DNA from: a bacterium
GTDB lineage: Bacteria > JACRDZ01 > JAQUKH01
DNA length: 64,000 bases
Direction: 5' to 3'
Assembly (NCBI GenBank): GCA_028719205.1
Contig: JAQUKH010000009.1
Coordinates: forward strand, 1-64,000
The stretch's first letter is position 1, and the number at the start of each line of letters is the position of its first letter. The notes beneath the pieces are model-generated. The model worked only from the letters and a program-made list of their open reading frames with translations, ran no database searches and had not been told where the DNA came from. This document shows positions 12,018-36,956 of this stretch, piece after piece. Both the position numbers and the translations under genes were made by a program.

Positions 12018-12020
12018 ATT

Positions 12021-12491: not shown

Positions 12492-12492
12492 G

Positions 12493-13665: not shown

Positions 13666-13673
13666 GAGTTATT

Positions 13674-14627: not shown

Positions 14628-14630
14628 AAT

Positions 14631-17421: not shown

Positions 17422-17433
17422 CGAAGGGGGCGT

Positions 17434-18921: not shown

Positions 18922-19403
18922 TGAGAAAGATAAAGTTTTTGATATTATTATTAACATTATTTATGATTTTCTCCGTTTCTCTAAAAGCGGAAGAGAATGA
19001 AGTTGTGAGTGAGGAAGGCCAAAGCGCCCCGCATGAGACCGGAACGCCTTTAGTATATTATTTGAACTGGGCGGGCCTGATTGCGATGTGTGTGATTGTT
19101 TTGAGGGAGGTTAAAAATAAAAAAAGTGATAAAAAACACCAGGAAGATAAAAAAGATATTGAGTTTTATGAAGCCGGTTCTGAAAAACCAAATGATCCGG
19201 AGCATAAGTTCCAAAAACCGGTGCTTAAACCGGTTCTTTTGATACTTTTAGCGGTGTTAATATTTTTTGGCGAGCAGTTGCCGGTATTATCTGATTTTCA
19301 TGAAAATTTAGCTGCCGGGTATTTTAGATTTATTTTTAAAATTCTTATAGGTGTTTTAATGTTATCGTACGGCCTTTCCAGTATGGAAGAGGAACATCAT
19401 TAG
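18921..19403 (+). CDS. Unrecognised membrane protein inside the antiporter series (160 aa)
   Basis: No family is recognised. The chosen ATG overlaps the preceding stop by one base. The product has a signal peptide or first helix (ILLLTLFMIFSVSLKA), an exported acidic segment, a helix at about 44-60 (YYLNWAGLIAMCVIVL), a charged cytosolic loop (KNKKSDKKHQEDKKD), and two C-terminal helices (VLLILLAVLIFFGEQLPVL and FIFKILIGVLMLSYGLS). Its place between two antiporter genes with tight spacing suggests an accessory subunit that packs between modules, perhaps analogous to small Mrp subunits. This is inference. Confidence 0.6.
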   Translation: MRKIKFLILLLTLFMIFSVSLKAEENEVVSEEGQSAPHETGTPLVYYLNWAGLIAMCVIVLREVKNKKSDKKHQEDKKDIEFYEAGSEKPNDPEHKFQKPVLKPVLLILLAVLIFFGEQLPVLSDFHENLAAGYFRFIFKILIGVLMLSYGLSSMEEEHH

Positions 19404-19412
19404 GAGATATTA

Positions 19413-20963
19413 ATGGTTATCGAAAGCAGTTTACCTTTATTTGCTATCTTTATTCCTTTATTGGGATCAATTGCGATTCCGATATTAAGGGGGAAAATAG
19501 AGAAATATGTTAATCAATTTACTGTATTAATAACGGTCTTGACCTTTGCGATGGTTTTGCTGATGTATCCGGATATAGGCCGCGGGAATATTCTGGAGAA
19601 GAGCTTTAATTCAGGATTTAGTATTGGTTTTCTTTTTCAGGTAGACGCTTTAGGTTATTTTATTGGATTTATTTCCGCCTTTATCTGGATGCTGACAAGT
19701 TTTTATAGTATTGAGTACATGGCTAATAAAGGCAATTTACTGAGATATAATATGTTTTCTTTGCTTTCTCTTGCAGGTATGCTCGGAGTTGTTTTTACCG
19801 GGAATCTTTTTAGTTTGTATCTTGCGTTTGAATTATTGACGGTTGCGTCCTATGTTTTAATTATACAGGAAGAAAATTCTAAAGCCATGCGGGCAGGTAT
19901 GATCTATCTTTTTATGGGGATCGCAGGCGGATTGATACTTTTATTTTCGATTTTAGCAACATACGCAATGGCGGGAACCGGAGATTTTACGGGTCTAGCC
20001 TCAAAATTATCAGGGAGCCCTTTATTACATTCTTTATTGCCATATGTTTTCTGGGGTTATATTATCGGTTTTGGAGTAAAGGCAGGCCTTTTCCCATTTC
20101 ACGTATGGGTTCCTGAAGCATATTCCATAACGCCTTCTCCTTCATCTGCGCTTTTTGCCGGTGTAATGAAAAAAGCGGGGGCATATGGTATTTTACGCGC
20201 TATTTACAGTATTGTAGGGATGGATTTGCTTAGAGGTGAAACCATGCTGACAGTCTTGTTAGTTTTTTCACTGATAAGTATATTTTTAGGTTCTGCCATA
20301 GCTATATCACAAACAGAATTAAAAAAGATGCTTGCATATTCCAGTATCGCTCAGATCGGATATATTGTGTTGGGTTTTGCGCTCCTTACTCCAAGAGGCG
20401 CGACGGGCGGGACTTTACATATTTTAAATCACGCGTTAACAAAAAGTACTTTATTTTTAGCCGCAGGAAGTTTTATTTTTAAAAAAGGAATAGTAAATAT
20501 AGCTGATCTGGAAGGAATAGGGAAAAAAATGCCTGTTACTACTGCCTGTTTCACTATTGCCGGCTTATCAATGATCGGATTTCCGCCTTTTTGTGGTTTT
20601 ATCAGTAAATGGTTTCTGGCGTTAGGTTCATTGGATGTGGTGAATTATGGCTCATATAGTTTTTATGTCGGGGTGATTGCGTTAAGTACACTAATGCTTA
20701 GCAGTTTTATGAATCTGGTTTATTACGGGCCTGTTATTTATAAGGCATGGTTTGGAGGAGAAAATTCAGACAATCCTTCACTGGAATACGCGGTGACTGA
20801 TGAGGAATCAAAAATCGAGGATCCAAGTTTATATATGTTAATACCTTTAATTATTTTAACTGCCGGGATCGTGTGTTTTGGTATTTTTCCGCAGTTTCCT
20901 GTATCGTTCGTTCAAAAGATCGTAGATGGCTTTTTTTCTGCCGGAGGGTGTATAGTTAAATGA
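19413..20963 (+). CDS. Extra antiporter-like complex I subunit (third)
   Basis: 516 aa with about 14 helices. AFELLTVASYVLI holds the helix-5 glutamate, GFGVKAGLFPFHVWVPEAYS the helix-7 lysine, and ITPSPSSALFAGVMKKAGAYG the helix-8 region. QTELKKMLAYSSIAQIGY follows. All residues needed for ion transfer appear intact, so it should be a working pump module. It overlaps nuoL by four bases. Its close likeness to the gene at 17434 suggests local duplication, with the 160-aa gene between them. Confidence 0.88.
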   Translation: MVIESSLPLFAIFIPLLGSIAIPILRGKIEKYVNQFTVLITVLTFAMVLLMYPDIGRGNILEKSFNSGFSIGFLFQVDALGYFIGFISAFIWMLTSFYSIEYMANKGNLLRYNMFSLLSLAGMLGVVFTGNLFSLYLAFELLTVASYVLIIQEENSKAMRAGMIYLFMGIAGGLILLFSILATYAMAGTGDFTGLASKLSGSPLLHSLLPYVFWGYIIGFGVKAGLFPFHVWVPEAYSITPSPSSALFAGVMKKAGAYGILRAIYSIVGMDLLRGETMLTVLLVFSLISIFLGSAIAISQTELKKMLAYSSIAQIGYIVLGFALLTPRGATGGTLHILNHALTKSTLFLAAGSFIFKKGIVNIADLEGIGKKMPVTTACFTIAGLSMIGFPPFCGFISKWFLALGSLDVVNYGSYSFYVGVIALSTLMLSSFMNLVYYGPVIYKAWFGGENSDNPSLEYAVTDEESKIEDPSLYMLIPLIILTAGIVCFGIFPQFPVSFVQKIVDGFFSAGGCIVK

Positions 20964-23464
20964 TAGTACAATCAATAACTAATCAAATGGGGTTGGAATC
21001 CGCTCTTCCGATATGGATAATTCTGGTTCCGATATTAACGGCGTTTATAAGTATATTTGTCGCAAGGTTCAGCGAAGTTATGCGTAAATTTGTTGTTATA
21101 GGCGGATCTGTCCTGGATTTTATTCTTGTCTTATTAATGGGCAAACCTGTTTTATCCGGAGGCGGGATAGCAATTTCAATGCCTTGGATGGAAAGATTTA
21201 ATCTGGGATTCCGGGTGGATCATATTGGTTATTTAATGGTGCTTTTAGTAAGTTTTGTCTGGCTGTTGGCCACGATTTATGGCCAGGGTTATTTTAAAAA
21301 GGAAGACAAAGGCGCCCGTTATGACTTTTTCAGTTTGATTACAATGTCAATGAACCTGGGGGTTATGCTTGCGGGAGATTTCCTCACTTTGTTCATATTT
21401 TTTGAAGGGCTGGTAATATTTCCTTACAGTATGATAGCTCACAAGGGTGATGACAAATCGATTAAAGGCGCGAATTTTTATCTTTATGTTGGTGTTGTTA
21501 CAGGTTTGATGCTGTTAGGCGGAATGATCATGCTGAACTATTTTACCGGAAGCCTGGATATAATCAGCCAGGGCGCGAAATTAAGCAGTATTCCGAATCA
21601 GGCAAAATATATTATAGCCTTCTTAATGATTGCTGGTTTTGGCGGAAAGGCCGCATTGTTCGGCGAACATATCTGGGTTCCCAGGATGTATCCGAATACA
21701 TTAAGCATTACAGCCTGCTTATCAAGCGGCGCGATGATCAAGGCGGGGGCATATGGAATATTCAGGGTTTTAAACTTAATTTATAGCGGATTTGACAGTA
21801 ATTTGCTTACGCAGGAAAATATAGGTTATGTGTTGATCATGGTTGGTGTCGTGACAATGTTTTTAGGTGTTTTAAACGCGCTGATCAGCAGTGATTCGCA
21901 GGAAATGCTGGGGTACCATAGCGTAAGCCAGATGGGTTATATCATGATGGGTTTAGGCTGTGCGGCTTATATGGGGAAAGACGGGGCAATGGGATTGTCG
22001 GGCGCGATATATCATATTGTAAATCACAGCCTTTTTAAGGCAAGTTTGTTTTTATGCGTAGGCGCGGTGTATTACGCCACAGGCGAACAGGACATGTATA
22101 AATCAGGCGGATTATTTAAAAAAATGCCTTTGACCGCGATCTGTCTGTTAATAGCTGTACTGGGTATTTCGGGGGTGCCGGGCTTTAACGGTTTTGCCAG
22201 TAAAACATTATTACATCATTCCATTTTAGAAGCGTATGAACATTCCGCGCTTTATTTTGGCAAGCCTGATATTATGCTGCGATTAGCGGAAATAATTTTT
22301 GTTTTAACCGCGGCAGGGACATTCGCTTCAAATATTAAGCTGTTCATTTTAGTATTTTTAGGTAAAGAGAAAGAGGTATCGAAAGACGCGAAAGAAGTAC
22401 CTGTTTTAATGAAGATAAGCTTAATAGGTTTTTCAGCTGTAATAATATTTTTAGGATTATTCCCAAATTGGCTTTTAGAGCATATAATCGGGCCGGGCCT
22501 CAGTGCTTATGGATATGATCCTTCATCTCACGCGTACCATCTGATTTATAATATTCATGCAAGCGATATCCACTCTACTTTGCCTATCTTGTATGAACCG
22601 TTGACAAAGGCGTTTTTTACGAGTTCAGCTGTTCTTCATAATTTATTGCCCGGCGCTACAGCTATATTTTTTGGAGGTATGTATTTTATATTAGGAATGC
22701 GGTTTGGATGGTTTCATGTTTATGTTACGGAAAAATTTACCGTGGAGTTTTATTACAGAAAAGTTTTTGACGGTTTCAAATATTTTTGTGTAAAGCCGTG
22801 CGTTATTTTTGCCATGTGGGTCAGAGAGTTGATTTCTGTTTTGATGGTTTATATCTGGGTGCCCGGAAGCCATGAAGGAATTTTCATAAAACGTCCTGCG
22901 CCTAAAGCAAAAGGTTTAGAACTTTTTAGCGACGCGGAAACCAAATTCAATCTGGTTTATGATGAGAAGGATAAGCAGCAGCCAGGCGCGCTGGATATGC
23001 TGGCGCGTGTAGAAGGCGGAACAAATGGCCAGAAAAGGCCGGGAGCGTGGGAAGTGTTTGGAAGGGCGGATACAAATTACGATAACATGCTTGGCGGGGC
23101 TATTCAAAGACAGGGAGGTTTGTGGAGGATTTTTGGCAGTACTGATATGACATATGATACGATTTTAGATCGTGTTATTGCCGCTATCGTAGGTTTAGAA
23201 GAAATACCGATTTCGAGAATTGAAGAAGTAAAAGTTTTAGAAAAGCTGCCTGGAGAGGATTTGGTGGCGAATTATTATATATTCTGTGACGCGAATAAAT
23301 CAGTAGATATGAATGTTATTGATGGTTTTGTAAATTATATAGCGGATATGACAAGCGGGCTGGGCAGTATATTAAGGAAATTACAGACGGGCAGAGTTTC
23401 AAGTTACGCGTACAGTTTTGTTTTGGGCGCGGTAGTTTTAATGGCTGTATTATTGTTGAGATAG
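20960..23464 (+). CDS. nuoL: NADH-quinone oxidoreductase subunit L with large insert before the C-terminal helix
   Basis: The 834-aa product is the only antiporter here with a NuoL-type tail. The core shows IFFEGLVIFPYS, GFGGKAALFGEHIWVPRM and QEMLGYHSVSQMGY. After helix 14 comes VEFYYRKVFDGFKYFCVKP, the usual lead into the lateral helix, and the end reads MNVIDGFVNYIADM, RKLQTGRVSSYAYSFVLGAVVLM, as in NuoL. Between these, about residues 630-780, is an insert absent from ordinary NuoL, with four degenerate repeats of the form [LW]-x-hydrophobic-F-x-x-x-[DE]-x-x-[YF]-[DN]. Usual NuoL is about 600-680 aa. Which face of the membrane the insert occupies is not certain. Confidence 0.88.
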   Translation: MIVQSITNQMGLESALPIWIILVPILTAFISIFVARFSEVMRKFVVIGGSVLDFILVLLMGKPVLSGGGIAISMPWMERFNLGFRVDHIGYLMVLLVSFVWLLATIYGQGYFKKEDKGARYDFFSLITMSMNLGVMLAGDFLTLFIFFEGLVIFPYSMIAHKGDDKSIKGANFYLYVGVVTGLMLLGGMIMLNYFTGSLDIISQGAKLSSIPNQAKYIIAFLMIAGFGGKAALFGEHIWVPRMYPNTLSITACLSSGAMIKAGAYGIFRVLNLIYSGFDSNLLTQENIGYVLIMVGVVTMFLGVLNALISSDSQEMLGYHSVSQMGYIMMGLGCAAYMGKDGAMGLSGAIYHIVNHSLFKASLFLCVGAVYYATGEQDMYKSGGLFKKMPLTAICLLIAVLGISGVPGFNGFASKTLLHHSILEAYEHSALYFGKPDIMLRLAEIIFVLTAAGTFASNIKLFILVFLGKEKEVSKDAKEVPVLMKISLIGFSAVIIFLGLFPNWLLEHIIGPGLSAYGYDPSSHAYHLIYNIHASDIHSTLPILYEPLTKAFFTSSAVLHNLLPGATAIFFGGMYFILGMRFGWFHVYVTEKFTVEFYYRKVFDGFKYFCVKPCVIFAMWVRELISVLMVYIWVPGSHEGIFIKRPAPKAKGLELFSDAETKFNLVYDEKDKQQPGALDMLARVEGGTNGQKRPGAWEVFGRADTNYDNMLGGAIQRQGGLWRIFGSTDMTYDTILDRVIAAIVGLEEIPISRIEEVKVLEKLPGEDLVANYYIFCDANKSVDMNVIDGFVNYIADMTSGLGSILRKLQTGRVSSYAYSFVLGAVVLMAVLLLR

Positions 23465-23471
23465 GAGAAAT

Positions 23472-25007
23472 ATGTTTCCAATTTTGTCAATTTTAACTTT
23501 TTTACCTCTTGCAGGCGCGTGTCTGGTTCTTCTCTTTATCCCTAAAGATAAAGAAGAGCTGATCAGAAAAATTACATTAGTAATTTCACTTGTGGAATTA
23601 ATTTTGGCAGTATTCCTTGTTTATGAATTTAATCCGGGAAAGATCGAAATGCAATTTGTGGAAAAATTGCCGTGGATCCCGTCGGTAGGCATTGAATATT
23701 TTATGGGTGTAGACGGAATAAGTGTTTTGATCATTCTTTTGACTGCTATTTTAACGTCGGTTTCCATCCTTGCCTCTTGGACCTCGATTAAAAACAGAGT
23801 TAGAGAATTTTATCCTTTACTTCTTTTTATTGAAACTGCTGTAATAGGTTCACTGGCTTCATTAGATTTTGTGCTTTTTTATATTTTCTGGGAAATTATG
23901 CTTATTCCGATGTTTTTCCTGATCGGCGTTTGGGGTGGAGAGAATAGGCTGTACGCGGCTGTAAAGTTTTTCCTTTTTACCTTGTTTGGCAGCGTATTAA
24001 TGCTTGTAGGTATTTTGGCTTTATATTTTAAATTTTATGAATTGACCGGTGGGGCATTAGGTGGCGGTGAATTAACTTTTAATATTTTAAAATTAAGATC
24101 TGTTTCTTATCCGATTAATTTTCAGCTTTGGGTATTCGCGGCATTTTTTGTGGGATGGGCGATCAAAATACCGATGTTTCCATTCCATACATGGCTTCCG
24201 GATGCCCATGTACAGGCTCCGACCGCGGGGAGTATTATTCTTGCGGGTGTTTTATTAAAGATGGGAGCATATGGATTTTTACGTTTCAGTTTACCTTTAT
24301 TCCCATATGCGAGCCATGCCTTTGCGCCTTTGGTCGGGATCTTAGCGGTTATCGCGATAATATATGGGGCATTTCTGGCTATTTCTCAAAAGGATATGAA
24401 AAAACTGGTGGCATATTCCAGTGTCAGCCATATGGGTTTTATAGTATTGGGAATTTTTTCATTCAGTCAATTCGGTCTGGAGGGGGCAATACTTCAATTA
24501 TTTAATCATGGTGTTACTACCGGGGCATTATTTTTGTGTGTTGGTTTGCTTTATGACCGCGCGCATACAAAACAGATAGAGGATTTTGGGGGATTATCTA
24601 AACAGGTTCCGATATTTACTTTTTTCTTCACTTTGTTCCTGCTGGCTTCAATGGGGGTGCCGGCCCTTTCAGGTTTTATGGGGGAATTTTTGATACTGAC
24701 CGGGGCGGTAAAAAATAATGTTATTCTTCATAATGGATTATATAGATTTTTTGGTGTTTTTGCGGTAGCGGGTATTCCTTTAGGCGCGGCTTATTCCTTG
24801 TGGTTGTATCAGCGAGTAATGCTGGGGCATAAGGTAAATCCTAAACATGTTAATATGCTTGACCTGAATCTTAGGGAGGGCATATGCCTGGCAACACTTG
24901 CAATATTTGTTATCTGGATCGGTGTTTATCCTGATCCATTTTTAAGGATTTTTCGCGTTGCCGCTGAACAAATTGTTTTACAGGCAGGAAAGGCTGGAGG
25001 TATTTAG
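23472..25007 (+). CDS. nuoM: NADH-quinone oxidoreductase subunit M
   Basis: 511 aa. The NuoM signature YFMGVDGISVLIILL is present, with IFWEIMLIPMFFLIG (helix-5 glutamate), FVGWAIKIPMFPFHTWLPDAHVQAPT (helix-7 lysine and the HTWLPDAH motif) and KMGAYGFLRF. The C-terminal SLWLYQRVMLG is typical. A ribosome binding site TAGGAG lies upstream, and nuoN follows by five bases. It is the fifth of six antiporter-type subunits. Confidence 0.95.
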   Translation: MFPILSILTFLPLAGACLVLLFIPKDKEELIRKITLVISLVELILAVFLVYEFNPGKIEMQFVEKLPWIPSVGIEYFMGVDGISVLIILLTAILTSVSILASWTSIKNRVREFYPLLLFIETAVIGSLASLDFVLFYIFWEIMLIPMFFLIGVWGGENRLYAAVKFFLFTLFGSVLMLVGILALYFKFYELTGGALGGGELTFNILKLRSVSYPINFQLWVFAAFFVGWAIKIPMFPFHTWLPDAHVQAPTAGSIILAGVLLKMGAYGFLRFSLPLFPYASHAFAPLVGILAVIAIIYGAFLAISQKDMKKLVAYSSVSHMGFIVLGIFSFSQFGLEGAILQLFNHGVTTGALFLCVGLLYDRAHTKQIEDFGGLSKQVPIFTFFFTLFLLASMGVPALSGFMGEFLILTGAVKNNVILHNGLYRFFGVFAVAGIPLGAAYSLWLYQRVMLGHKVNPKHVNMLDLNLREGICLATLAIFVIWIGVYPDPFLRIFRVAAEQIVLQAGKAGGI

Positions 25008-25012
25008 TTTTT

Positions 25013-26470
25013 ATGGAACAATTAAATTATTTGAGTTTATTACCGGAAATAGTTATTATTTTGGCAGGAATACTGGTTATTGCTGCTGATCTTATAATAG
25101 ATAAGAAGGATAATATTATCAGCGAAGTGATCTCCGTACTTGGATTAATTATTGCGCTTTTTTTAACAGGCAATCAATTCTTAAATCCGGAGATCATATC
25201 TCAGAATAATATGCTGATATCTGATTCCTATGCTGTGTTTTTTAAGGTAGCTCTGATCATACTTTCTTTAATGGTCATTTTAATCTCATCACATCATATC
25301 AGAGAACGCGGTATTACTCATCGGGCTGAATATTTTACTTTTATTCTTTTCGCCACAGTAGGTATGATGATTATGGCCGGAAGTTTGGATCTTGTAACTG
25401 TTTATGTCGGACTGGAGTTAATGGCAATTTCCATATATATTCTTGTCGGGATTTCCAGGACGGAATTCCTTTCAAATGAGGCAGCGTTAAAGTATTTTCT
25501 TTTAGGCCTGTTAGCTACCGCTTTTCTGCTTTACGGGATCTCGTTCACTTATGGAATGTTCGGGACAACTAATCTGGTTGTAATTAAAAACTTTTTGCAA
25601 AATAATACAACTGCTAACAGCGGTTATATACTGGTTTTGGTTTTTCTTGTAATAGCGTTTGGTTTTAAGGTTGCGGCTGTTCCCTTTCATATGTGGACCC
25701 CTGACGCGTATGAGGGCGCGATGACTCCGGTTACCGGTTTTATGTCTGTCGGCCCGAAATTGGCCGCGTTCGCGGTGTTAGGCAGGGTTTTTGTTTATAG
25801 CTTATTGACATTAAAGGCTGAATGGACGCTTATTTTGACTATTGTTTCAATATTAACTATGACTGTGGGAAATGTGGTTGCGATCGCGCAGACTAATATA
25901 AAAAGAATGCTGGCTTATTCCAGTATTGCCCACGCGGGTTATTGCTTAATGGGGCTTGTGGCGGCAGGCGGGTTGGCGGGAAGCCTGGGATTGCAGTCAG
26001 TTCTTTTTTACCTGAGCGGGTATCTTTTTATGAATGTAGGCGCGTTCTCTATTATAATATTTTTAAATAAGAAAGGTATTTCAGGATCTGAGCTGGATGA
26101 TTTTTCAGGTTTAAATGAACGCTATCCCGGTATCGCGTTAATGATGAGTGTTATTTTGCTTTCTCTGGCGGGGGTACCGCCGACGACGGGCTTTGCCGGA
26201 AAATTGTATGTTTTTATGGCCGCGGTAAAATCAAAATATATGTTTTTAGCGGTTATAGGTGTGCTCAATAGCGTAATTGCTTTATATTATTATCTTAGAA
26301 TAATTGTTTATATGTATATGAAAAAACCTGCTGACCTGAAAGAGGAGACTAATAGGTCTGTGCCGTTATTATTAGTGTTAGGAATCGCGGTAGTTGCGAT
26401 TTTGGTGCTTGGTATTTATCCTGAACCGGTACTAAATTTTGCAAAATCGGCTGCTGGAGGTATGTTTTAA
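25013..26470 (+). CDS. nuoN: NADH-quinone oxidoreductase subunit N
   Basis: 485 aa. The family signature LDLVTVYVGLELMAISIYILVG contains the helix-5 glutamate, and AFGFKVAAVPFHMWTPDAYEGAMTPVTGF contains the helix-7 lysine. LAGVPPTTGFAGKLYVF and a C-terminal YYYLRIIVYMYMK are also typical. It ends immediately before nuoE with no intergenic base. Confidence 0.95.
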   Translation: MEQLNYLSLLPEIVIILAGILVIAADLIIDKKDNIISEVISVLGLIIALFLTGNQFLNPEIISQNNMLISDSYAVFFKVALIILSLMVILISSHHIRERGITHRAEYFTFILFATVGMMIMAGSLDLVTVYVGLELMAISIYILVGISRTEFLSNEAALKYFLLGLLATAFLLYGISFTYGMFGTTNLVVIKNFLQNNTTANSGYILVLVFLVIAFGFKVAAVPFHMWTPDAYEGAMTPVTGFMSVGPKLAAFAVLGRVFVYSLLTLKAEWTLILTIVSILTMTVGNVVAIAQTNIKRMLAYSSIAHAGYCLMGLVAAGGLAGSLGLQSVLFYLSGYLFMNVGAFSIIIFLNKKGISGSELDDFSGLNERYPGIALMMSVILLSLAGVPPTTGFAGKLYVFMAAVKSKYMFLAVIGVLNSVIALYYYLRIIVYMYMKKPADLKEETNRSVPLLLVLGIAVVAILVLGIYPEPVLNFAKSAAGGMF

Positions 26471-26938
26471 ATGGAACTTTCACCTAAACTTATAAAAGAA
26501 ATAAATGAGTTAGCGGATGCATGCCCGAATAAAAAAGGGGCCTTGCTTCCGGTTCTATATTTGGTTCAGAAAGAATATGGTTTTCTTTCAGAGAGCATTT
26601 TAAAGGATATAGCTTTTATTTTAAATATACCGGAGGTTTTTGTTTTTGGCGTGACGACTTTTTATACAATGTTCCATACAAGTGAGCAGGCTAAAAATAT
26701 TATTTCAGTTTGTACAAATATAACCTGCTCATTATTAGGGAGCGAACATATTATTAAGACATTAGAAAATATCTTAAAGATAAAGCCGGGTGAGATGACA
26801 AAAGACAAAAAGTTCAGTTTGAACCTGGTGGAATGTTTGGGTTCCTGCGGAACTGCGCCTGTTATGATGGTAAATGGGGACCTTCATGAGAATCTTACAG
26901 AAGAAAAAATAAAGAGAATTTTAGATACATATAAATGA
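26471..26938 (+). CDS. nuoE: NADH-quinone oxidoreductase subunit E (first copy)
   Basis: The 155-aa thioredoxin-like 2Fe-2S subunit carries all four ligands in the usual arrangement, C-T-N-I-T-C and E-C-L-G-S-C. An N-terminal helical bundle (LLPVLYLVQKEYGFLSESIL) precedes VTTFYTMF. It pairs with the NuoF at 26957 to form the NADH-oxidising module. It starts directly after the nuoN stop. Confidence 0.92.
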   Translation: MELSPKLIKEINELADACPNKKGALLPVLYLVQKEYGFLSESILKDIAFILNIPEVFVFGVTTFYTMFHTSEQAKNIISVCTNITCSLLGSEHIIKTLENILKIKPGEMTKDKKFSLNLVECLGSCGTAPVMMVNGDLHENLTEEKIKRILDTYK

Positions 26939-26956: not shown

Positions 26957-28231
26957 ATGGATTATCCTAGTATAACTTTGCGGAATATTAAAGAGCCTGA
27001 TTCACATAAAATAAATACTTATTTAAAATCGGGCGGATATAAAGGATTAACACGTGTTTTGGATGATATGGTTCCGGAAGAGGTTATTGGAAGCATAAAA
27101 CGTTCAGGGCTGCGCGGCCGCGGCGGAGCTTCATTTCCTACCGGGTTGAAATGGGAGTTTGCCCGCAGGGACAGGAATTTCCCGAAATATATTGTATGTA
27201 ATGCGGATGAGGGCGAGCCGGGAACGTTTAAAGACAGGATCCTTATTGAAAAAGATCCGTTCGCGATCATTGAAGGAATGACGATAGCGGGTTTTTCAGT
27301 GGGAGCTGAAAAGGGATATATTTATATAAGAGGTGAATATGTTAAAGGGGCGGAGATCCTGAGAAAGGCGATAAAAGAAGCAAAGGAAAAAAATTTTCTC
27401 GGGAAAAATATCCAGGGGAAAGATTTTAATTTTGACTTGGATGTTTATATGGGCGCAGGGTCATATATCTGCGGTGAAGAGACCGCCTTGATCGAATCTC
27501 TGGAGGGTAATGTGGGATATTCTCGTATTAAACCGCCTTTTCCGATAAATGTCGGATTATGGGATAAGCCTACAGTATTGAATAATGTTGAGACATTTTC
27601 TCTGGTCGCCCCGATCATTGTTAACGGCGATGAATGGTTCTCGAATATAGGCGCCCGTGATTTTCCCGGCACAATGATATATTCTTTGAGCGGGCATGTA
27701 AATAAACCGGGACTGTATGAACTTCCGACAGGGATAAATTTAAAAACTATTATTTATGAGTTTGGCGGAGGTATAAAAGACGGTAAAAAATTGAAGGCGG
27801 TTTTTCCCGGAGGCCTTTCTTCCGGATGTTTAAATGAAAATGAAATTGATATCCCGATGGACCATAAAGCGCTGGCAAAAGTGGGCAGCATGTTAGGTTC
27901 GGGCGCGATAATAGTAATTAATGATGAAACTTGTATGGTAGAGATCGCACGCCGGGGAATGAAATTTTTCAGGCATGAGTCTTGCGGCAAATGTGTGCCA
28001 TGCCGTGAAGGGACATTTTGGATCTCAAAGATAATGTTACGGATCGTGAATGGAGAGGGGAAAAAAGAAGATCTGGATCTGATTAAGGACCTTGGACAGG
28101 GTATGAAAACCGCGGCGTTTTGCGGGTTGGGCTTAGCAGCGGCAAATCCTGTTTTAAGTATTATAAAGAATTTCCCTAAGGATTTTGAATCGCATATTAA
28201 TGATAAGAAATGCGCGTATAATAATAAGTGA
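26957..28231 (+). CDS. nuoF: NADH-quinone oxidoreductase subunit F (first copy, classical type)
   Basis: NuoF holds FMN, the NADH site and cluster N3. The 424-aa product has GRGGASFPTGLKW (FMN and NADH loop), CNADEGEPGTFKDR, CGEETALIESLEG, an SLBB-like segment, and the 4Fe-4S ligands SCGKCVPCREG and CGLGLAAANP. The EPGTF sequence matches respiratory NuoF rather than the bifurcating type. It lies 18 bases after nuoE and starts at an ATG after TTGTGGAGA. Confidence 0.93.
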   Translation: MDYPSITLRNIKEPDSHKINTYLKSGGYKGLTRVLDDMVPEEVIGSIKRSGLRGRGGASFPTGLKWEFARRDRNFPKYIVCNADEGEPGTFKDRILIEKDPFAIIEGMTIAGFSVGAEKGYIYIRGEYVKGAEILRKAIKEAKEKNFLGKNIQGKDFNFDLDVYMGAGSYICGEETALIESLEGNVGYSRIKPPFPINVGLWDKPTVLNNVETFSLVAPIIVNGDEWFSNIGARDFPGTMIYSLSGHVNKPGLYELPTGINLKTIIYEFGGGIKDGKKLKAVFPGGLSSGCLNENEIDIPMDHKALAKVGSMLGSGAIIVINDETCMVEIARRGMKFFRHESCGKCVPCREGTFWISKIMLRIVNGEGKKEDLDLIKDLGQGMKTAAFCGLGLAAANPVLSIIKNFPKDFESHINDKKCAYNNK

Positions 28232-28272: not shown

Positions 28273-31200
28273 ATGGTCAAAATAACAATAGATGGTAAAG
28301 AGGTTCTTGTTCCTGAAAATATAAATATTTTAGAGGCCGCGCAGCAGGCCGGTATTTATATACCTAAATTATGTTTTCATAGCAAACTAAGCCGGTACGG
28401 GGCCTGCAGGGTCTGTCTGGTTAAGATAGAAGGGGTTCCAAAATTATCGGCCGCTTGCGCTGTTATGTGTACGGAAGGAATGATCATAACTACTGATACC
28501 CCTGAGATAAATAAACTTAGAAAAACTGTAGTTGAACTTATGCTTTTGTATCATCCTCTGGATTGCCTGGTTTGCGATAAGGGCGGGGAGTGTGAGCTTC
28601 AGACTCTGACATTCAAGCTGGGAGTTACGGAAGACCGGTTCAAAATGCATTTCCAGAAATATGAGAGAATTGATGTTAATCATCTTATCGCGCGGGATAT
28701 GAAAAAATGTATTCTTTGCGGTAAATGTGTCAGGGTTTGTGATGAGATCCGCGGGAGGGGTGCGATCGGTTACACTTATCGCGGTTTTAATACCCGTGTA
28801 GATTTTCCATTCGGCCGTGTTTCGAATTGTGAGGTTTGCGGGCAGTGCCTTGCGGTCTGTCCTGTCGGAGCTTTGGCACCGCGATTTTCTGAATATGAAG
28901 CAAGGCCGTGGGAAATGAAACAGGTGAAAAGCATATGCCCTTATTGCGGATGCGGCTGTACGGTTATTTTAGATACTAAAGAAAATAAGATTGTAAGGAT
29001 CTCTTCTAAAGAAGGGCTTGGTGTTAATGACGGGAAGGTATGCGCGAAGGGCAGATTCGGGTATGATTTTGTAAATAATAAGTTCAGGTTAAAATATCCC
29101 CTGGCAAAAAAAGACGGGATGTTTGTTCCTGTGACATGGGATGAAGCATTAGATTTAATTGCCAATAATTTTAAGGAAATAACAGAAAAATACGGCAGTG
29201 ATAAAATTGGCGGCATTGGATCAAACCGGGTTACAAATGAAGAAAGTTATTTATTCCAGAAATTCATGCGGGCAGTCTTAAAGACAAATAACGTAGACAG
29301 CCAGATAAGAATCGAACACGCGGCTTCTTTCAAGGCATTAACTGATAGTTTTGGGTATGGAGCGGCTACTAATACCATACCGGAGATAGAAAATACAAAG
29401 GTTATTTTATTAATAGGAACAGATACTACTGAGACTATGCCTATTATTGGATTAGCAATTAAAAAAGCCATTAGAGCGAACAAGGCAAAATTAATTGTTA
29501 TTAACAGCCGCGAGATCGACCTGACAAAGTTTTCAGAAATGTGGTTTCAGGTAAAACCCGGGATAGAGCTTTTACTGCTTTCAGCCATGTTAAAGATAAT
29601 AATTGATGAGAAACTTTATAACGTGTCTTTTGTGGAAAAACGGACAGAAGATTTTGAAAAGGTAAAAATTAAACTCGAAAAATTATCCCTGGATAATGTG
29701 CAAAATGTAGCGGGGATCAGCAAGGAAAAAATTCAGGAGGCGGCAAGGCTTTACGCGGGCGCGGAAAGCGCGATGGTGATTTTCGGCCTTGAATTTGTTT
29801 TGCAGGAAAGAGCAGTTGATAACGTTTACACGCTGGTCAATCTGGTACTTGCATGCGGCCATATAGGTAAAGAAAATAACGGGATCATTCCCCTGCGCCA
29901 GACAAATAACGGCCAGGGAACTACAGATATGGGTGTTCTCCCGGATTATCTTCCCGGATATCAGTCAATATATTCTTCTTCAGTAAAAAATGATTTTGAA
30001 AAAAAGTGGAATACAAAACTTCCGGTTAATGTCGGTTTGACTGCCACAGAGATGATCCAGGCTATTCCTGAAGGGAAAATAAAGGGAATGTATATTGTCG
30101 GCTGTAATCCCGCGGTCTCCCATCCAAACGCGATACAAGTGGAAGAAAATTTAAAATCACTGGATTTTCTTGTTGTGCAGGATATATTTCTTTCTGAAAC
30201 AGCAAAGCTTGCGGATGTTGTTCTGCCCGCGGTAAGTTTCGCGGAAAAGGAAGGGACATTTACTAATACTGAGCGCAGGGTCCAGAAAATAAATAAGGCT
30301 ATAAAATCTTCCGCTGAAACCAGGCCGGATTGGAAAATAATCGTAAATCTGGCTATGAAGTTCGGATATGTAATGGAATATCTTTCAATAGAAGAAATAT
30401 TCCAGGAAATGACAAGCCTGGTTCCTATTTATAGAGGAATAACCTATTCAAGGCTTGAAGAAAAAGAACCTATATACTGGCCATGTGTTTCTCTGGAAGA
30501 TAAAGGCACGAAAATTTTATATCTGGACAGTTTTGAACGTGGAAAAGCAAAGTTTCATCCTGTTGAATATAAATATTCTACTTCACAGCCGACATTGCAT
30601 TTTCCTTACCGTATTATCACTAACGGTACCTTATTCCATCATAGAAGCGGGGTTATGACCAGAAGGTCAAAAGGAATGAGTTTTGTTGAGGAAGAGCCGA
30701 AATTATGTGTGCATCCTAATGACGCAAAGAAATTAGAGATAGAAGATAATTCGATAGTCAGGGTGGCAAGCAAGCAGGGCGAGATAGAAACTAAGGTTTT
30801 TGTTACAAATAAAGTTATGGAAGGAATGCTATTCCTGCCTTTGCACGCGAATTGGAATTCCTGTTTTAATATGCTTACTAAATCGACGCTGGATCCTTCA
30901 TCAAAGTCTCCTAATATGGAAGAAACCTTTGTGGATGTTATTCCTGTTACCAGAAAAAAAGAAATGGTGACTTTGAGCGTTAATGATAAAGAAATTACCG
31001 TTGAGCAAGGTACTACAATTCTGGAAGCCGCGAAAAAACTTGATATTTATATTCCAACACTTTGTTATCACAGTAAAATGTCTCCATTTGGCGCGTGCAG
31101 GCTTTGCCTTGTTGAGATCGAGGGAACAAATAAATTATTAGCCTCATGTATTACGCCTGTGTTAAATAACATGAAAGTTAAAACTGAGACGGATCCCGTG

Positions 31201-33639
31201 CGAAAGCTCCGGAAGATGATACTGGAACTTCTTTTAGCGAAACACCCTGTGGATTGTTTGGTTTGTGACAAAGGCGGGGAGTGTGATCTGCAGAAGCTTT
31301 CTTTTCTGTATGGTCCTGAAAGGAACCGTTTTGGCGCGCAGACACAGGAAAGTGTAACGGACGATACAAGAACATTAGTTGAACGGGATATGAGCAAATG
31401 TATTTTATGCAAGAAATGTGTCCGTGCGTGCAGTGAGATGCAGGGTGTAAATGCGATCGCGTTTTCACGAAGGGGTTTTAAGACAGAGATGGGGACGTTT
31501 TTCGGCAGGGGATTGGATTGTGAATTTTGCGGCAGATGTGTTTCTGTCTGTCCGACAGGGGCGTTAGCCAATAAGTTATCAAAACACGCCGCGCGGCCCT
31601 GGGAGATGAAAGAGTTTTCTACAATATGTTCCTACTGCGGGTGCGGGTGCAGTATGGTGTTAAATATAAAGGATAACAAGATCGTCAAGGTTACCGCTAA
31701 AGAAGGGGCAGGTATAAATAACGGAAATTTGTGCGTGAAAGGCAGATATGGTTATACCTATGTAAATGATCCGGAAAGACTGACTACGCCTTTAATTAAA
31801 AGAAGCGGGAAATTTATGCGCGCTTCATGGGAAGAGGCGATTAAATTAATAGCCTCTAAGTTTAAAACGATAAAGGAACAGGCTGGGCCGGATTCAATTA
31901 TGGGATTGGGTTCGGCATATTGCACTAATGAAGATAATTATTTGTTCCAGAAATTTATGCGGGCAGCAATTGGGACCAATAATGTTGACACAGCTTGTTT
32001 CCATTATGAACACGCGGCTTCATTAAAGGTTCTTACACAGGTGTTTGGCAGCGGTTCAATGACTAATTCTTTTAATGAAATTGCGAATGCCAAATCGATC
32101 CTTGTTATCGGAACGGATATTACAGAAACTCATCCTACATTCGCGTTAGAGGTTAAACGTGCGGTAAGAGAAAATAACGCGAATTTAATTGTTATCGATC
32201 CGAGACGCATAAAACTTACAAATATCGCCAAATTATGGCTTCGCCCGAATTATGGAACAGATGTGGCATTAATTAACGGTATTATTAATATTATTATCAG
32301 TCAGGGATTGCTGGACCAGAATTTTATTGAGAACCGGACGGAAGGATTCGAGGAATTACAGGAGACTATCAGGGAATATACACCGGAATTTGTTTCTAAA
32401 ATTACCGGTGTCGCGAAAGAAGATATTGTTAAGGCCGCGGAACTGTTTACTTCAAGCAGAAATGGCGCGGTTCTTTATGGAATGGGCGCGACACAGCATA
32501 CGTCAGGATTGCAAAATGTAGCCGCGTTAACCAATTTGATATTATTGACCGGTAATGTCGGCCGGCCGAATGTCGGGCTTTATCCGCTTCGCGGGCAAAG
32601 CAACAGCCAGGGCTCCTGCGATATGGGAAGCATTTCTGATTTTCTTCCCGGATACCAGAAAATGAGTGATCTCGCGATGATCAAAAAGTTTGAGAAGGCA
32701 TGGAAGATTACTTTGCCTATGTGGCCCGGATTCAACCTGCCGGAAGCAGTTTCAGCTATGGAGATAGGAAAGGTAAAAGCCCTTTATATTATGGCAGGCA
32801 ATTTGAAGATGAGTTATCCTAATTCCCGCCAGATCGAGGAGAGCTTAAAAAAACTGGAATTTTTGGTAGTTCAGGATATGTTCTTAACAGAGACCGGAAA
32901 AATGGCGGATGTAATTTTACCCTCCTGCAGTTTCGCGGAAATAGACGGGACGTTCACTAATATGGAAAGAAGGGTACAGTTGTTAAGAAAGGCATTGCCT
33001 CCGGTTGGAGAAAGCAAGCCGAACTGGAGAATTATTTCCAATTTATCAAAGGCAATGGGTTATGATATGAATTACAGCAATTCATCTGAAATAATGGATG
33101 AGATCAATCAATTAGTGCCGATATACGGTGGTATTACGCATAAACGTTTAAATAGCCATGGGTTACAATGGCCTTGTCCGGATAAAAATCATCCAGGTTT
33201 GCAATATTTGTATAAACAAGGTTTTCCCAGTGGAAAGGCAAAATTTATTGTGGAACGGTACATACCTATGGCTGAAAAGCCGGATAGAGAATATCCGTTT
33301 TTGTTATCAACCGGAAAATCGCTTTTTCATTATCATACAGGGGTTATGACCCAAAGGTCTCAAGGGATCATGGATGTTTGTCCTGAGGGTTTTATGGAGA
33401 TAAATCCAAAAGATGCGGATATATTGAATTTGAAGGATAAAGATAAAGTTCGTGTAAAATCCAGAAGAGGGGAACTTACTGTAAAAATTATCATAACTGA
33501 TAAAACACCGGATGGCGTTGTTTTCCTTCCTATGCATTTTAAAGAAATTCCGGTTAATGTTTTAACAAACGCTGCATTAGACCCTTATTCTCATGTGCCG
33601 GAGTTTAAATCTTGTGCGGTAAAAGTAGAAAAAATTTAA
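28273..33639 (+). CDS. Double-length NuoG/FdhA-like protein: two complete iron-sulfur/molybdopterin-type halves fused
   Basis: The 1788-aa protein contains two full copies of the NuoG/formate-dehydrogenase alpha architecture: residues 1-896 and 897-1788. Each has a 2Fe-2S domain (CFHSKLSRYGACRVC; CYHSKMSPFGACRLC), a His-Cys3 site (HPLDCLVCDKGGEC; HPVDCLVCDKGGEC), two 4Fe-4S motifs (CILCGKCVRVC and CEVCGQCLAVC; CILCKKCVRAC and CEFCGRCVSVC), a further 4Fe-4S site (CPYCGCGC; CSYCGCGC), a molybdopterin-type domain and a C-terminal beta-barrel. At the position of the formate-dehydrogenase Cys/Sec, both halves have Glu (Glu348 and Glu1246, in EHAAS), although FGYGAATN and FGSGSMTN are kept. Usual NuoG is 700-900 aa. 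An AGGAAGG site precedes the ATG. It would form a doubled electron wire in the complex I arm; any catalytic role is uncertain. Confidence 0.9.
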   Translation: MVKITIDGKEVLVPENINILEAAQQAGIYIPKLCFHSKLSRYGACRVCLVKIEGVPKLSAACAVMCTEGMIITTDTPEINKLRKTVVELMLLYHPLDCLVCDKGGECELQTLTFKLGVTEDRFKMHFQKYERIDVNHLIARDMKKCILCGKCVRVCDEIRGRGAIGYTYRGFNTRVDFPFGRVSNCEVCGQCLAVCPVGALAPRFSEYEARPWEMKQVKSICPYCGCGCTVILDTKENKIVRISSKEGLGVNDGKVCAKGRFGYDFVNNKFRLKYPLAKKDGMFVPVTWDEALDLIANNFKEITEKYGSDKIGGIGSNRVTNEESYLFQKFMRAVLKTNNVDSQIRIEHAASFKALTDSFGYGAATNTIPEIENTKVILLIGTDTTETMPIIGLAIKKAIRANKAKLIVINSREIDLTKFSEMWFQVKPGIELLLLSAMLKIIIDEKLYNVSFVEKRTEDFEKVKIKLEKLSLDNVQNVAGISKEKIQEAARLYAGAESAMVIFGLEFVLQERAVDNVYTLVNLVLACGHIGKENNGIIPLRQTNNGQGTTDMGVLPDYLPGYQSIYSSSVKNDFEKKWNTKLPVNVGLTATEMIQAIPEGKIKGMYIVGCNPAVSHPNAIQVEENLKSLDFLVVQDIFLSETAKLADVVLPAVSFAEKEGTFTNTERRVQKINKAIKSSAETRPDWKIIVNLAMKFGYVMEYLSIEEIFQEMTSLVPIYRGITYSRLEEKEPIYWPCVSLEDKGTKILYLDSFERGKAKFHPVEYKYSTSQPTLHFPYRIITNGTLFHHRSGVMTRRSKGMSFVEEEPKLCVHPNDAKKLEIEDNSIVRVASKQGEIETKVFVTNKVMEGMLFLPLHANWNSCFNMLTKSTLDPSSKSPNMEETFVDVIPVTRKKEMVTLSVNDKEITVEQGTTILEAAKKLDIYIPTLCYHSKMSPFGACRLCLVEIEGTNKLLASCITPVLNNMKVKTETDPVRKLRKMILELLLAKHPVDCLVCDKGGECDLQKLSFLYGPERNRFGAQTQESVTDDTRTLVERDMSKCILCKKCVRACSEMQGVNAIAFSRRGFKTEMGTFFGRGLDCEFCGRCVSVCPTGALANKLSKHAARPWEMKEFSTICSYCGCGCSMVLNIKDNKIVKVTAKEGAGINNGNLCVKGRYGYTYVNDPERLTTPLIKRSGKFMRASWEEAIKLIASKFKTIKEQAGPDSIMGLGSAYCTNEDNYLFQKFMRAAIGTNNVDTACFHYEHAASLKVLTQVFGSGSMTNSFNEIANAKSILVIGTDITETHPTFALEVKRAVRENNANLIVIDPRRIKLTNIAKLWLRPNYGTDVALINGIINIIISQGLLDQNFIENRTEGFEELQETIREYTPEFVSKITGVAKEDIVKAAELFTSSRNGAVLYGMGATQHTSGLQNVAALTNLILLTGNVGRPNVGLYPLRGQSNSQGSCDMGSISDFLPGYQKMSDLAMIKKFEKAWKITLPMWPGFNLPEAVSAMEIGKVKALYIMAGNLKMSYPNSRQIEESLKKLEFLVVQDMFLTETGKMADVILPSCSFAEIDGTFTNMERRVQLLRKALPPVGESKPNWRIISNLSKAMGYDMNYSNSSEIMDEINQLVPIYGGITHKRLNSHGLQWPCPDKNHPGLQYLYKQGFPSGKAKFIVERYIPMAEKPDREYPFLLSTGKSLFHYHTGVMTQRSQGIMDVCPEGFMEINPKDADILNLKDKDKVRVKSRRGELTVKIIITDKTPDGVVFLPMHFKEIPVNVLTNAALDPYSHVPEFKSCAVKVEKI

Positions 33640-33655
33640 AAGTGAGGTGACTAAA

Positions 33656-34126
33656 ATGACAGATGTAAAATTCATCAAGAATATTTCGATTTTTAAAGAT
33701 CTGGATGATGAAGAAGTAAAAAAAATCGCGGGCATCGCTACTGAAAAAACATATCCCGCTAAAACAGTTATTTTTACTGAGGGACAGACAGGCGCGAAAT
33801 TGTACATTGTTAAACAGGGGAGTGTTAGAATAACTAAGGTAATCCGGGAAGGGGAAAAACAGATTTTGGATATAATCGAAGAAGGGGAATATTTCGGAAA
33901 GATGTCTTTCATTGATGGCGGGGAACATTCAGCTACAGTCGAAACTGTTAAAGAATCTACATTAATATGTATTGAAAAAGCAGACTTTGAAAAATTGGCT
34001 CAGGATGATCCAGCCGGTGGTTTCAGAATAATGAAAGCATTGTCGGTTGTTACTATCGAGATATTGCGGGAAATGAATGATAAGTTTGTTGAGTTAGTAA
34101 ATTATATGTGGGGTGGAAGGAGATAG
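33656..34126 (+). CDS. Single-domain cyclic-nucleotide-binding-fold protein (first)
   Basis: The 156-aa product is a CNBD with no DNA-binding domain: KNISIFKDLDDEEVKKIAGI, then AKTVIFTEGQTGAKLYIVKQGSVRI, then the phosphate cassette EYFGKMSFIDGGEHSATVET. Compared with CAP-type sites, the ribose-binding Glu is Lys (FGK) and the cyclic-phosphate Arg is His (EHSA), so classical cAMP binding is doubtful. The C-terminal helix ends NYMWGGRR. The ATG at 33656 follows GAGGTG; an in-frame GTG at 33647 would add three residues. It lies 16 bases after the fused NuoG and 12 before the second NuoE, so it belongs to the complex I operon. Confidence 0.85.
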   Translation: MTDVKFIKNISIFKDLDDEEVKKIAGIATEKTYPAKTVIFTEGQTGAKLYIVKQGSVRITKVIREGEKQILDIIEEGEYFGKMSFIDGGEHSATVETVKESTLICIEKADFEKLAQDDPAGGFRIMKALSVVTIEILREMNDKFVELVNYMWGGRR

Positions 34127-34138
34127 GAGCGAAAAAAT

Positions 34139-34648
34139 ATGGTTATAGAATATGTTGCGGCTAAACAAACGAGTTTTGATACAACCAAAGCGTTAGAGAT
34201 AATAAAACAGTATAAAGGTAAACGTGGGTCATTAATTTCAGTTCTGCAAAGGATCCAGGATGCCTATGGATTTTTGCCTGAGCCGATATTGGACCTGGTT
34301 GCTGAAGGCTTGAATGTTTATCTGACAGATGTATATGGGGTAGTAACTTTTTATTCACAATTTTATTTGACGCCTCGGGGTAAAAACGTTATAAGGATTT
34401 GTCGCGGGACGGCATGCCATGTAAAGGGATCAGACAGAATTATGGAGAAATTGCTTGAAAAACTGGAAGTTAAGCCCGGGGAGATGACAAGAGACGGGAA
34501 TTTTACCATAGAAGAGGTTGCGTGCCTTGGCGCGTGCGGTATGGCGCCTGTTATGGTAATTAATAAAGATACATTTGGAGAGGTTACCACTGCTAAATCT
34601 TTAGAGATTGTTGAAAGCCACAGTGTTAACAAGGGAGAGAAAAAATGA
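34139..34648 (+). CDS. NuoE/HydC-like 2Fe-2S subunit (second copy)
   Basis: 169 aa, same fold as the NuoE at 26471, with the ligands ICRGTACHVKG and ACLGACGMAP. GVVTFYSQFYLTPRGKNVI and KPGEMTRDGNFTIEEV are typical of the HydC/HndA group of bifurcating enzymes as well as of NuoE. An AGGAG site lies before the ATG at 34139. It overlaps the next gene by four bases, so it forms a pair with the HydB-like protein. Its presence means the locus has two complete NADH-module pairs. Confidence 0.85.
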   Translation: MVIEYVAAKQTSFDTTKALEIIKQYKGKRGSLISVLQRIQDAYGFLPEPILDLVAEGLNVYLTDVYGVVTFYSQFYLTPRGKNVIRICRGTACHVKGSDRIMEKLLEKLEVKPGEMTRDGNFTIEEVACLGACGMAPVMVINKDTFGEVTTAKSLEIVESHSVNKGEKK

Positions 34649-36444
34649 ATCTGGATGAAGAGATAAAAGATGATAGAGTTCAGATATTAGTTTGTCTTGG
34701 AACAGGCGGACAAGCCGCGGGCGGAGACGCGGTTATTCATAAATTTGAAGAAGAAGTAAAAAAACACCACATTGACGCGGTGGTACAAAAGCCGTGTGTT
34801 GTAAGTAAGTCAGGATGCCGCGGTCTTTGCGCGAAGGATCTGTTGGTTGATATAATTATGCCTGGAAAAGGCCAGCATACATATATGAAAGTTACTAAAG
34901 AAATGGTTGTAAGGATCGTTGAGGAAGATATCCTGCAGGGAAATCCGATCCAGGAATGGCTGGTAACGGATGATTACCATAAATTTTATGATACTCAGGT
35001 ACGTAATATATTAAGCAGGTGCGGCAAAATTGACCCTGAAAATATTGATGAATATATTTCTCATGGCGGATATAAGGCATTAAGAAAAGTATTATTTGAG
35101 ATGACTCCTGATGAAGTAATTGAGGTAATAACAAATTCTAAATTAAGAGGCCGCGGAGGAGCCGGTTTTCCTACCGGAATGAAATGGAGTTTCGCGAAGA
35201 TGGCCCAGGCCGAGCATAAATATGTTGTTGTTAACGCGGATGAAGGAGATCCGGGCGCGTTCATGGATAGGAGCGTTTTAGAGGGTGATCCGCATTCAGT
35301 AATTGAAGGATTGATAATTGCCGCATACACTATGGGCGCTACTCATGGTTATTTTTACGCGCGGGCGGAATATCCTTTAGCTATAAAAAGGCTGGGGATC
35401 GCTCTTGAACAGGCAAGAGAAAAAAATTTATTAGGGAAAAATATCCTTGGCAAAGATTTTAATTTTGATATTGAAATTAAAGAAGGCGCCGGCGCGTTTG
35501 TCTGCGGCGAGGAAACCGCATTGATGGAATCAATTGAAGGGAAAAGAGGTATGCCGAGGATCCGGCCTCCTTTTCCGGCACGCAAGGGGTTATGGGAATC
35601 TCCTACAAACATTAATAATGTCAAAACCTATGCCAATATTCCTCTTATAATTAACAAAGGCGCGGAATGGTATCTTAATTTAGGGACAAAAAAAAGCCCG
35701 GGAACCGCGATCTTCGCGCTTACAGGGAAGATCAAAAATACCGGATTGGTAGAAGTCCCGATGGGTATGACATTACGGGCAATTATTTTTGATATATGCG
35801 GCGGTATGAGCGGGAAGAACCGAAAGTTTAAGGCTGCGCAGTTGGGCGGGCCTTCAGGCGGATGCCTTCCTGAGTCTCTTTTAGATACGCCTATTGATTT
35901 TGATTCATTAACTGCTGCCGGCGCTATGATGGGTTCCGGAGGTATTGTAGTTATGGATGATACTACATGCATGGTTGACATGGCGAGATTTTTCTTACAG
36001 TTCACGCAGAATGAGTCATGTGGTAAATGCACTCCCTGCAGGATAGGAACCCGCGCCATGCTTGAGATCCTTACAAGAATAACGGAGGGCAGAGGCCAGC
36101 CGAATGATATGGATTTACTCGCGGATATGGCCGGTGATATAAAAATGGCGTCACTTTGCGGTTTAGGACAGACCGCGCCAAATCCGGTACTCAGCACCCT
36201 CAGGTATTTCCGTGATGAATATGAGGCTCACATTATAGAAAAGCGATGTCCGGCAAGTTCATGTGTTAACCTGCTGAAATTTGAAGTTAATCCGAAACTT
36301 TGCAAAATGTGCGGTATTTGTATGAAAAATTGTCCGACCCAGGCAGTTATCTGGGAAAAGAAAACTGTCGCGAGAATAGATAAACCTAAATGTATAAAAT
36401 GCAGAACCTGCATAGATGTTTGTCCGTTCAGGGCAATAGGATAA
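34645..36444 (+). CDS. HydB/NuoF-like flavoprotein with C-terminal ferredoxin domain (second NuoF)
   Basis: The 599-aa protein has, in order, an N-terminal thioredoxin-like domain, a NuoF core (GRGGAGFPTGMKW, NADEGDPGAFMDR, CGEETALMESIEG), an SLBB segment, a 4Fe-4S site (SCGKCTPCRIG and CGLGQTAPNP), and two ferredoxin clusters (CKMCGICMKNC, CIKCRTCIDVC). DPGAF and the ferredoxin tail mark the HydB/HndC/bifurcating group. In the N-terminal domain the second cysteine is replaced (CLGTGG instead of CxGTGC), leaving three of four ligands. No HydA hydrogenase gene is present, so its partner is probably the fused NuoG-like protein. NAD(P)H specificity cannot be told. Confidence 0.87.
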   Translation: MNLDEEIKDDRVQILVCLGTGGQAAGGDAVIHKFEEEVKKHHIDAVVQKPCVVSKSGCRGLCAKDLLVDIIMPGKGQHTYMKVTKEMVVRIVEEDILQGNPIQEWLVTDDYHKFYDTQVRNILSRCGKIDPENIDEYISHGGYKALRKVLFEMTPDEVIEVITNSKLRGRGGAGFPTGMKWSFAKMAQAEHKYVVVNADEGDPGAFMDRSVLEGDPHSVIEGLIIAAYTMGATHGYFYARAEYPLAIKRLGIALEQAREKNLLGKNILGKDFNFDIEIKEGAGAFVCGEETALMESIEGKRGMPRIRPPFPARKGLWESPTNINNVKTYANIPLIINKGAEWYLNLGTKKSPGTAIFALTGKIKNTGLVEVPMGMTLRAIIFDICGGMSGKNRKFKAAQLGGPSGGCLPESLLDTPIDFDSLTAAGAMMGSGGIVVMDDTTCMVDMARFFLQFTQNESCGKCTPCRIGTRAMLEILTRITEGRGQPNDMDLLADMAGDIKMASLCGLGQTAPNPVLSTLRYFRDEYEAHIIEKRCPASSCVNLLKFEVNPKLCKMCGICMKNCPTQAVIWEKKTVARIDKPKCIKCRTCIDVCPFRAIG

Positions 36445-36479: not shown

Positions 36480-36956
36480 ATGGTAGATAAAGCGGTGTTA
36501 AAAAATATTCCACTTTTTAAAAATTTGGATAATAAAGAATTGGATGTAATTGCCAAGATCGTTAAAGAGGAGGCTTACCCTTCAGAAGAGATAATTTTTA
36601 GCGAGAATATGCAGGGCGGCAGGTTATTTATTATAAAAAAGGGAACGGTTAAGATAAGTAAGACCCTAAGGGAAGGCGAGAGGCAAAATCTGAATATACT
36701 TAAGGAAAATGAGTTTTTTGGAGAATGTTCTTTTATTGATTCCAGGCCGCATTCAGCTACGGCGGAGACCTTAAAAAATACCGATTTATTTATTATAGAA
36801 AAATCAGATTTTGATAAATTAGAAGAAACTAATCCTATGTGCGGCTATAAAGTTTTAAGGACTCTGACTTTAACCATTAATGGTATTCTCCGGCAAATGG
36901 ATGAAAAATTTATTGATATGGTTAAATATGTTTGGGAATACGGAAGCAAATCTTAG
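36480..36956 (+). CDS. Single-domain cyclic-nucleotide-binding-fold protein (second)
   Basis: 158 aa, paralogous to the protein at 33656: KNIPLFKNLDNKELDVIAKI, then IIFSENMQGGRLFIIKKGTVKI, then FFGECSFIDSRPHSATAET. The ribose-binding Glu is kept (FGEC) but the phosphate Arg is again His (PHSA). No helix-turn-helix follows; the C-terminal helix ends in FIDMVKYVWEYG, like NYMWGG in the paralogue, which suggests a shared docking helix. An AAAGGAG site precedes the ATG. It closes the complex I locus, with the HydB-like gene 35 bases upstream. Confidence 0.85.
   Translation: MVDKAVLKNIPLFKNLDNKELDVIAKIVKEEAYPSEEIIFSENMQGGRLFIIKKGTVKISKTLREGERQNLNILKENEFFGECSFIDSRPHSATAETLKNTDLFIIEKSDFDKLEETNPMCGYKVLRTLTLTINGILRQMDEKFIDMVKYVWEYGSKS

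Follow-up and report, generated by a model that had tools for sequence, protein, structure and literature searches.

A double-length NuoG-like protein encoded between two different FMN modules in a bacterial complex I operon

The complex I operon and its double G gene

The DNA analyzed here (the window) is a stretch of 64,000 nucleotides, positions 1 to 64,000 of contig JAQUKH010000009.1 (assembly GCA_028719205.1), from a bacterium of the GTDB lineage JACRDZ01; JAQUKH01. It contains a complex I operon in which a G gene of double length lies between the genes for two FMN input modules, designated E1F1 and E2F2. The features of this operon are as follows, with the basis of each assignment in parentheses:

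11191 to 15616, + strand: NuoA, B, C, D, H, I, and J (NuoA, D, and J by family model; B, C, H, and I by inspecting the translations and by conservation in G001)
15922 to 26470, + strand: six antiporter-like membrane subunits and a 171-aa protein (family models)
26471 to 26938, + strand: E1, a NuoE-like [2Fe-2S] subunit of thioredoxin fold (family models)
26957 to 28231, + strand: F1, a canonical NuoF of 424 aa with FMN and one 4Fe-4S site (models, alignment, and tree)
28273 to 33639, + strand: the fused double G protein of 1,788 aa (open frame, Pfam domains, and identical frame in G001)
28273 to 30963, + strand: half 1, residues 1 to 897, a Ga-type NuoG-like unit with five Fe-S clusters (domains, motifs, and tree)
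30964 to 33636, + strand: half 2, residues 898 to 1788, a Gb-type unit with five Fe-S clusters (domains, motifs, and tree)
33647 to 34126, + strand: a small protein consisting of just a cyclic-nucleotide-binding domain (domain search)
34139 to 34648, + strand: E2, a HydC/BfuC-like subunit (models)
34645 to 36444, + strand: F2, a HydB/BfuB-like FMN subunit of 599 aa with a C-terminal pair of [4Fe-4S] motifs (domains, alignment, and tree)
36480 to 36956, + strand: a second protein with a cyclic-nucleotide-binding domain only (domain search)

The antiporter-like set consists of three MrpD-like proteins, one L-like protein of 834 aa, NuoM, and NuoN; the 171-aa protein encoded among them had no family match. 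The entire set is also present in G001, a second species of the same genus, and most of it in G418, a genome from another phylum. More than three antiporter-like subunits also occur in the 2M-type complex I, which has an additional NuoM (Chadwick et al. 2018, as cited in PMC7117926), but the operon described here differs from the enzyme presented there in its input arm and in encoding six such subunits, of which three are MrpD-like. Neither of the two cyclic-nucleotide-binding proteins has a DNA-binding domain, and similar proteins flank E2-F2-G modules, including Sec-type formate dehydrogenase (FDH) modules, in other phyla.

The double G gene starts with ATG and runs through 1,788 codons with zero internal stops. 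The original prediction had described a single polypeptide with two complete NuoG/FdhA-like halves, all iron-sulfur cysteines in place, about ten clusters in one chain, and a length unusual for NuoG, and each of these points was borne out. Both halves contain the Pfam domains Fer2_4, NADH-G_4Fe-4S_3, Fer4_Nqo3, Molybdop_Fe4S4, Molybdopterin, and Molydop_binding in the same order, and when the chain is cut at Met898, all cluster motifs of the two halves fall into exact register: the four cysteines of a [2Fe-2S] cluster at position 34, a His-Cys3 motif at 94, eight cysteines for two ferredoxin-type [4Fe-4S] clusters at 146, and a Mo-type [4Fe-4S] motif at 222. The ligands thus provide for five clusters per half and ten per chain, and the complete set is also found in G001.

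Like NuoG/Nqo3, each half has the ordered cluster domains, including clusters N1b, N4, N5, and N7, and lies in a Nuo operon; the protein differs from NuoG/Nqo3 in having two complete G units in one chain of twice the length and, in each unit, an extra [4Fe-4S] cluster, as in FDH and some NuoG proteins. Both halves exceed the cut-off of the NCBIfam NuoG model, and both also pass that of the Fdh-alpha model (710 and 807 bits; cut-off, 666). FdsA of the Rhodobacter capsulatus FDH (6tg9; PMC7171172) aligns nearly end to end with each half.

The junction and the distribution of the fused gene

The two halves are joined at the following site:

30937 to 30972, + strand: junction, residues 889 to 900 (VIPVTRKKEMVT), stop-free and including an A7 run (sequence and comparison with G001)

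At the joint, the protein reads ...VDVIPVTRKKE/MVTLSV, encoded around the boundary by AGA AAA AAA GAA ATG in the window and by AGA AAA AAG GAA ATG in G001. G001 carries the same fused 1,788-aa frame within the same flanking operon; the two proteins are 90% identical with zero indels, and the genes are 83% identical at the DNA level and indel-free across 5.36 kb. Within residues 889 to 900, the two species differ by three synonymous and no nonsynonymous changes. This pattern of synonymous changes only, without an indel, is that predicted for a translated in-frame joint.

A homopolymer lies exactly at the joint, and unfused relatives are known in another phylum (G418 and G419, described below), so that a one-base miscount of the A7 run might have wrongly joined two genes. 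In G001, however, the gene is fused, of equal length, and indel-free, and the run is interrupted by the synonymous AAG (A6G), which makes the chance of an assembly or indel error negligible. The double gene is therefore confirmed as a genuine fusion and not an assembly artifact, and the question of misassembly, which the original prediction had itself raised, was answered by the second genome. A programmed frameshift at the A7 run was also considered and was dropped because the run is A6G in G001.

If half 2 were also translated separately from a start at Met898, two proteins would be made and the fusion would be of little consequence. Single G proteins have their start at the position of Met898, and in G001 the sequence AAGGA stands directly 5′ of its ATG, but this distance is too small for a good ribosome site. 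In the window, only AAAGAAATG precedes the Met898 ATG, whereas clear GGAG-type sites precede most other genes of the operon, and a stop is absent from the joint in both species. We consider such a second product distinctly unlikely.

Among about 810 distinct genomes, the fused protein was found only in the source genome (G000) and in G001, which was thus the sole result of the wider search for double proteins that had been proposed; the other matches listed were single units. The sample comprised broad draws of 60 and then 386 genomes, four genomes of the host's phylum, genomes of four further phyla, and 396 genomes of one large phylum. For the large searches, two candidates per genome were scored, and a double would rank first. 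A contig scan with narrow patterns (13 loci) yielded no further fused copy, and a literature search for a fused or double NuoG gave nothing relevant. Long Clostridium spans from the contig scan were rejected as doubles: they combine an FDH domain with a separate N-terminal-arm match several kilobases apart.

Origin of the two halves and the Mo-ligand position

G418 contains a complex I operon with the gene order H, E1, F1, Ga, Gb, cyclic-nucleotide-binding protein, E2, F2, and cyclic-nucleotide-binding protein, continuing with J, K, an MrpD-like gene, an L-like gene, M, and N. The order from E1 to the second cyclic-nucleotide-binding protein is that of the window, except that Ga and Gb are separate genes in G418, overlapping by one base so that the Ga stop and the Gb start share TAATG. 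In G419, from the same phylum as G418, Ga likewise adjoins Gb, and two cyclic-nucleotide-binding proteins follow. The G418 Gb gene (L122 6997 to 9720, G418:C113) contains one in-frame stop and may be a damaged or misassembled copy; the G419 Ga gene (L116 1990 to 4642, G419:C172) has a frameshift in the assembly, through decay or assembly error. Relatives with two separate genes had been put forward as a test of the fusion, and here the result was divided: the closest relative, G001, is fused, while G418 and G419 have two adjacent genes. The fusion is accordingly a derived state of the host genus.

Over 898 aligned columns, the two halves share 45% identity, in register and far above chance, and the original prediction had attributed them to a local duplication followed by fusion. 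Trees without Ga and Gb relatives were unable to reject sister halves (p = 0.31 and 0.08). Once these relatives were included, half 1 grouped with Ga of G418 and G419 and the complex I G protein of G002 (support, 95/91), and half 2 grouped with Gb of G418 and G419 (support, 100/97); sisterhood of the halves was rejected under the model used (approximately unbiased [AU] test, p = 2.3e-4), in a test for which the Ga/Gb pair was chosen after the earlier trees had been seen and which includes a partial row for G002. The codon-aligned DNA of the halves is, moreover, just about 54% identical. The separate supported groups and the rejected sisterhood speak against a local duplication of the kind originally proposed, which we now regard as highly improbable. 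As judged from these sequence comparisons, the double gene is a fusion, within the host genus, of two old genes that already lay side by side.

Alignment placed the following residues at the position of the Mo-ligand Cys or Sec:

29314 to 29316, + strand: Glu348, half 1 (alignment)
32008 to 32010, + strand: Glu1246, half 2 (alignment)

Both halves have Glu at this position, as do G001 and the unfused Ga and Gb proteins, whereas the surveyed FDHs have Cys or Sec; in an FDH alpha subunit, this Mo/W ligand should be followed by His. In half 1, the neighboring His is replaced by Gln in G001, which argues against a strict catalytic role of that residue. The description of the halves as NuoG/FdhA-like was hence correct for the fold, but the FDH Mo ligand is missing from both. 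One or both halves could still be an active FDH that sends formate electrons to complex I, given that both pass the Fdh-alpha cut-off and keep the active-site Arg position; against this stand the Glu shared by the halves, G001, and the unfused relatives, the Gln in G001, and the Cys-type FDH that the source genome encodes separately on contig C28, and we consider the proposal very unlikely. Because the Mo-ligand Cys or Sec is replaced by Glu, neither half should act as an FDH, and both are best read as electron-wiring subunits. The Glu and the location in a complex I operon also set the protein apart from FdsA. Contig C11 of the source genome (L081 7879 to 12980) carries a further E2-F2-G module, encoded apart from the operon. 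Its G protein likewise has Glu in place of the Mo ligand, and Lys in place of the active-site Arg; this module is conserved in G001 and has a relative in G419.

Two input modules and a proposed mechanism

F1 and F2 descend from separate old families, their sisterhood being rejected at p = 4e-5, and the closest structural matches of F2 are of the HydB type. Hallmarks of the bifurcating BfuB are the B2-cluster residues, including a conserved His, and two C-terminal [4Fe-4S] clusters (PMC9304861). In F2, the B2-cluster residues are present as Cys, Thr, His, Cys, and Cys (alignment to 7t2r_B), as are both C-terminal [4Fe-4S] motifs; at the N-terminal [2Fe-2S] site, Gly replaces one Cys of the 7t2r_B set, and the cysteine set looks incomplete. 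F1 has the His linked to bifurcation (PMC9304861) but has neither the C-terminal clusters nor two of the other B2 ligands.

F2 and E2 match HydB and HydC of the bifurcating HydABC hydrogenases (7t2r, 7p5h) in domain make-up, but here a hydrogenase domain is lacking, and the partner is the double G protein. In Nuo-Bfu operons, for example in Geobacter, BfuABC takes the place of NuoEFG (PMC9304861). The present operon resembles these in that its complex I genes are accompanied by those for a BfuA/NuoG-like subunit and for an FMN pair of the HydBC/BfuBC type. It differs in that the BfuBC-like E2F2 does not replace the canonical NADH module, since E1F1 is also present, and in that two G units are joined in one chain.

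Unfused complex I operons with two modules, in the order E1-F1-G1-cyclic-nucleotide-binding protein-E2-F2-G2, also occur in the phylum of G110 and G246. The two complete E-F-G modules of the G246 and G110 operons (L071 and L070) are separate genes, as they are in several species of that phylum, and their second F protein has 1,026 aa. In these operons, G1 has Trp or Thr at the Mo-ligand position, and G2 has Gly or Ala there.

The matching gene order around the unfused Ga-Gb pair in the G418 complex I operon, the different old families of F1 and F2 together with the bifurcation hallmarks of F2, and the unfused two-module operons of the G110/G246 phylum underlie our reading, which suggests that a complex I with the double G chain draws electrons from two different input modules simultaneously. 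Loss of the stop between Ga and Gb in the host genus would have caused both G-type Fe-S subunits to be made as one chain. We infer that half 1 most likely bears the canonical E1F1 NADH module and docks toward NuoI as NuoG does, and that half 2 most likely bears the HydBC/BfuBC-like module E2F2. The chain would place both FMN modules on a single membrane arm that has additional antiporter-like subunits; all would be parts of one complex, and electrons would flow between the halves. In the most likely function, NADH and reduced ferredoxin (by confurcation at F2) would drive ion pumping and the reduction of quinone, or the process would run in reverse, with electrons from NADH and ferredoxin converging on one quinone site. 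For this explanation as a whole, in which the fused chain links Ga and Gb and places both modules on one complex I, we estimate a probability of about 0.5 from the gene content and sequences.

E2F2 might instead form a separate complex. In a further alternative, E2F2 and half 2 would work as an independent module that is just tethered to complex I, and electrons would not pass between the halves. Stand-alone E2-F2-G modules are common, the Glu-type module on C11 being one of them; both modules, however, stay within the complex I operon in the host genus and in G418, and here halves 1 and 2 are covalently joined. We judge this alternative unlikely.

In the R. capsulatus FDH, the His-Cys3 clusters of two FdsA subunits face each other, and a Leu packs the contact between them (PMC7171172); here, two such units are covalently joined. 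Both halves have the contact Leu, as do the Glu-type relatives that were examined, whereas the other surveyed complex I G proteins have mostly Pro, and otherwise Thr or Trp, at this position. The retained Leu is consistent with a covalent pseudo-dimer of the halves. In complex I, the His-Cys3 face of NuoG meets NuoI. A contact of the FdsA type would need this same side, and a pseudo-dimer and complex I docking may therefore conflict.

The fusion provides good evidence for a single complex containing the two G subunits that relatives encode in tandem. It is possible, if somewhat short of even odds, that these operons represent a class of complex I, present in at least two phyla, in which canonical NADH and ferredoxin/NADH-bifurcating modules sit on paired G subunits, here one ten-cluster chain, and feed one quinone site and five or six antiporter-like pumps. 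The complex I and Nuo-Bfu machinery is known, and what is new is a variant of the complex I input arm. The idea of two merging modules lies near the Nuo-Bfu proposal yet outside its coverage, and the fusion opens to testing whether a single complex I can bear two input modules and combine electrons from NADH and ferredoxin.
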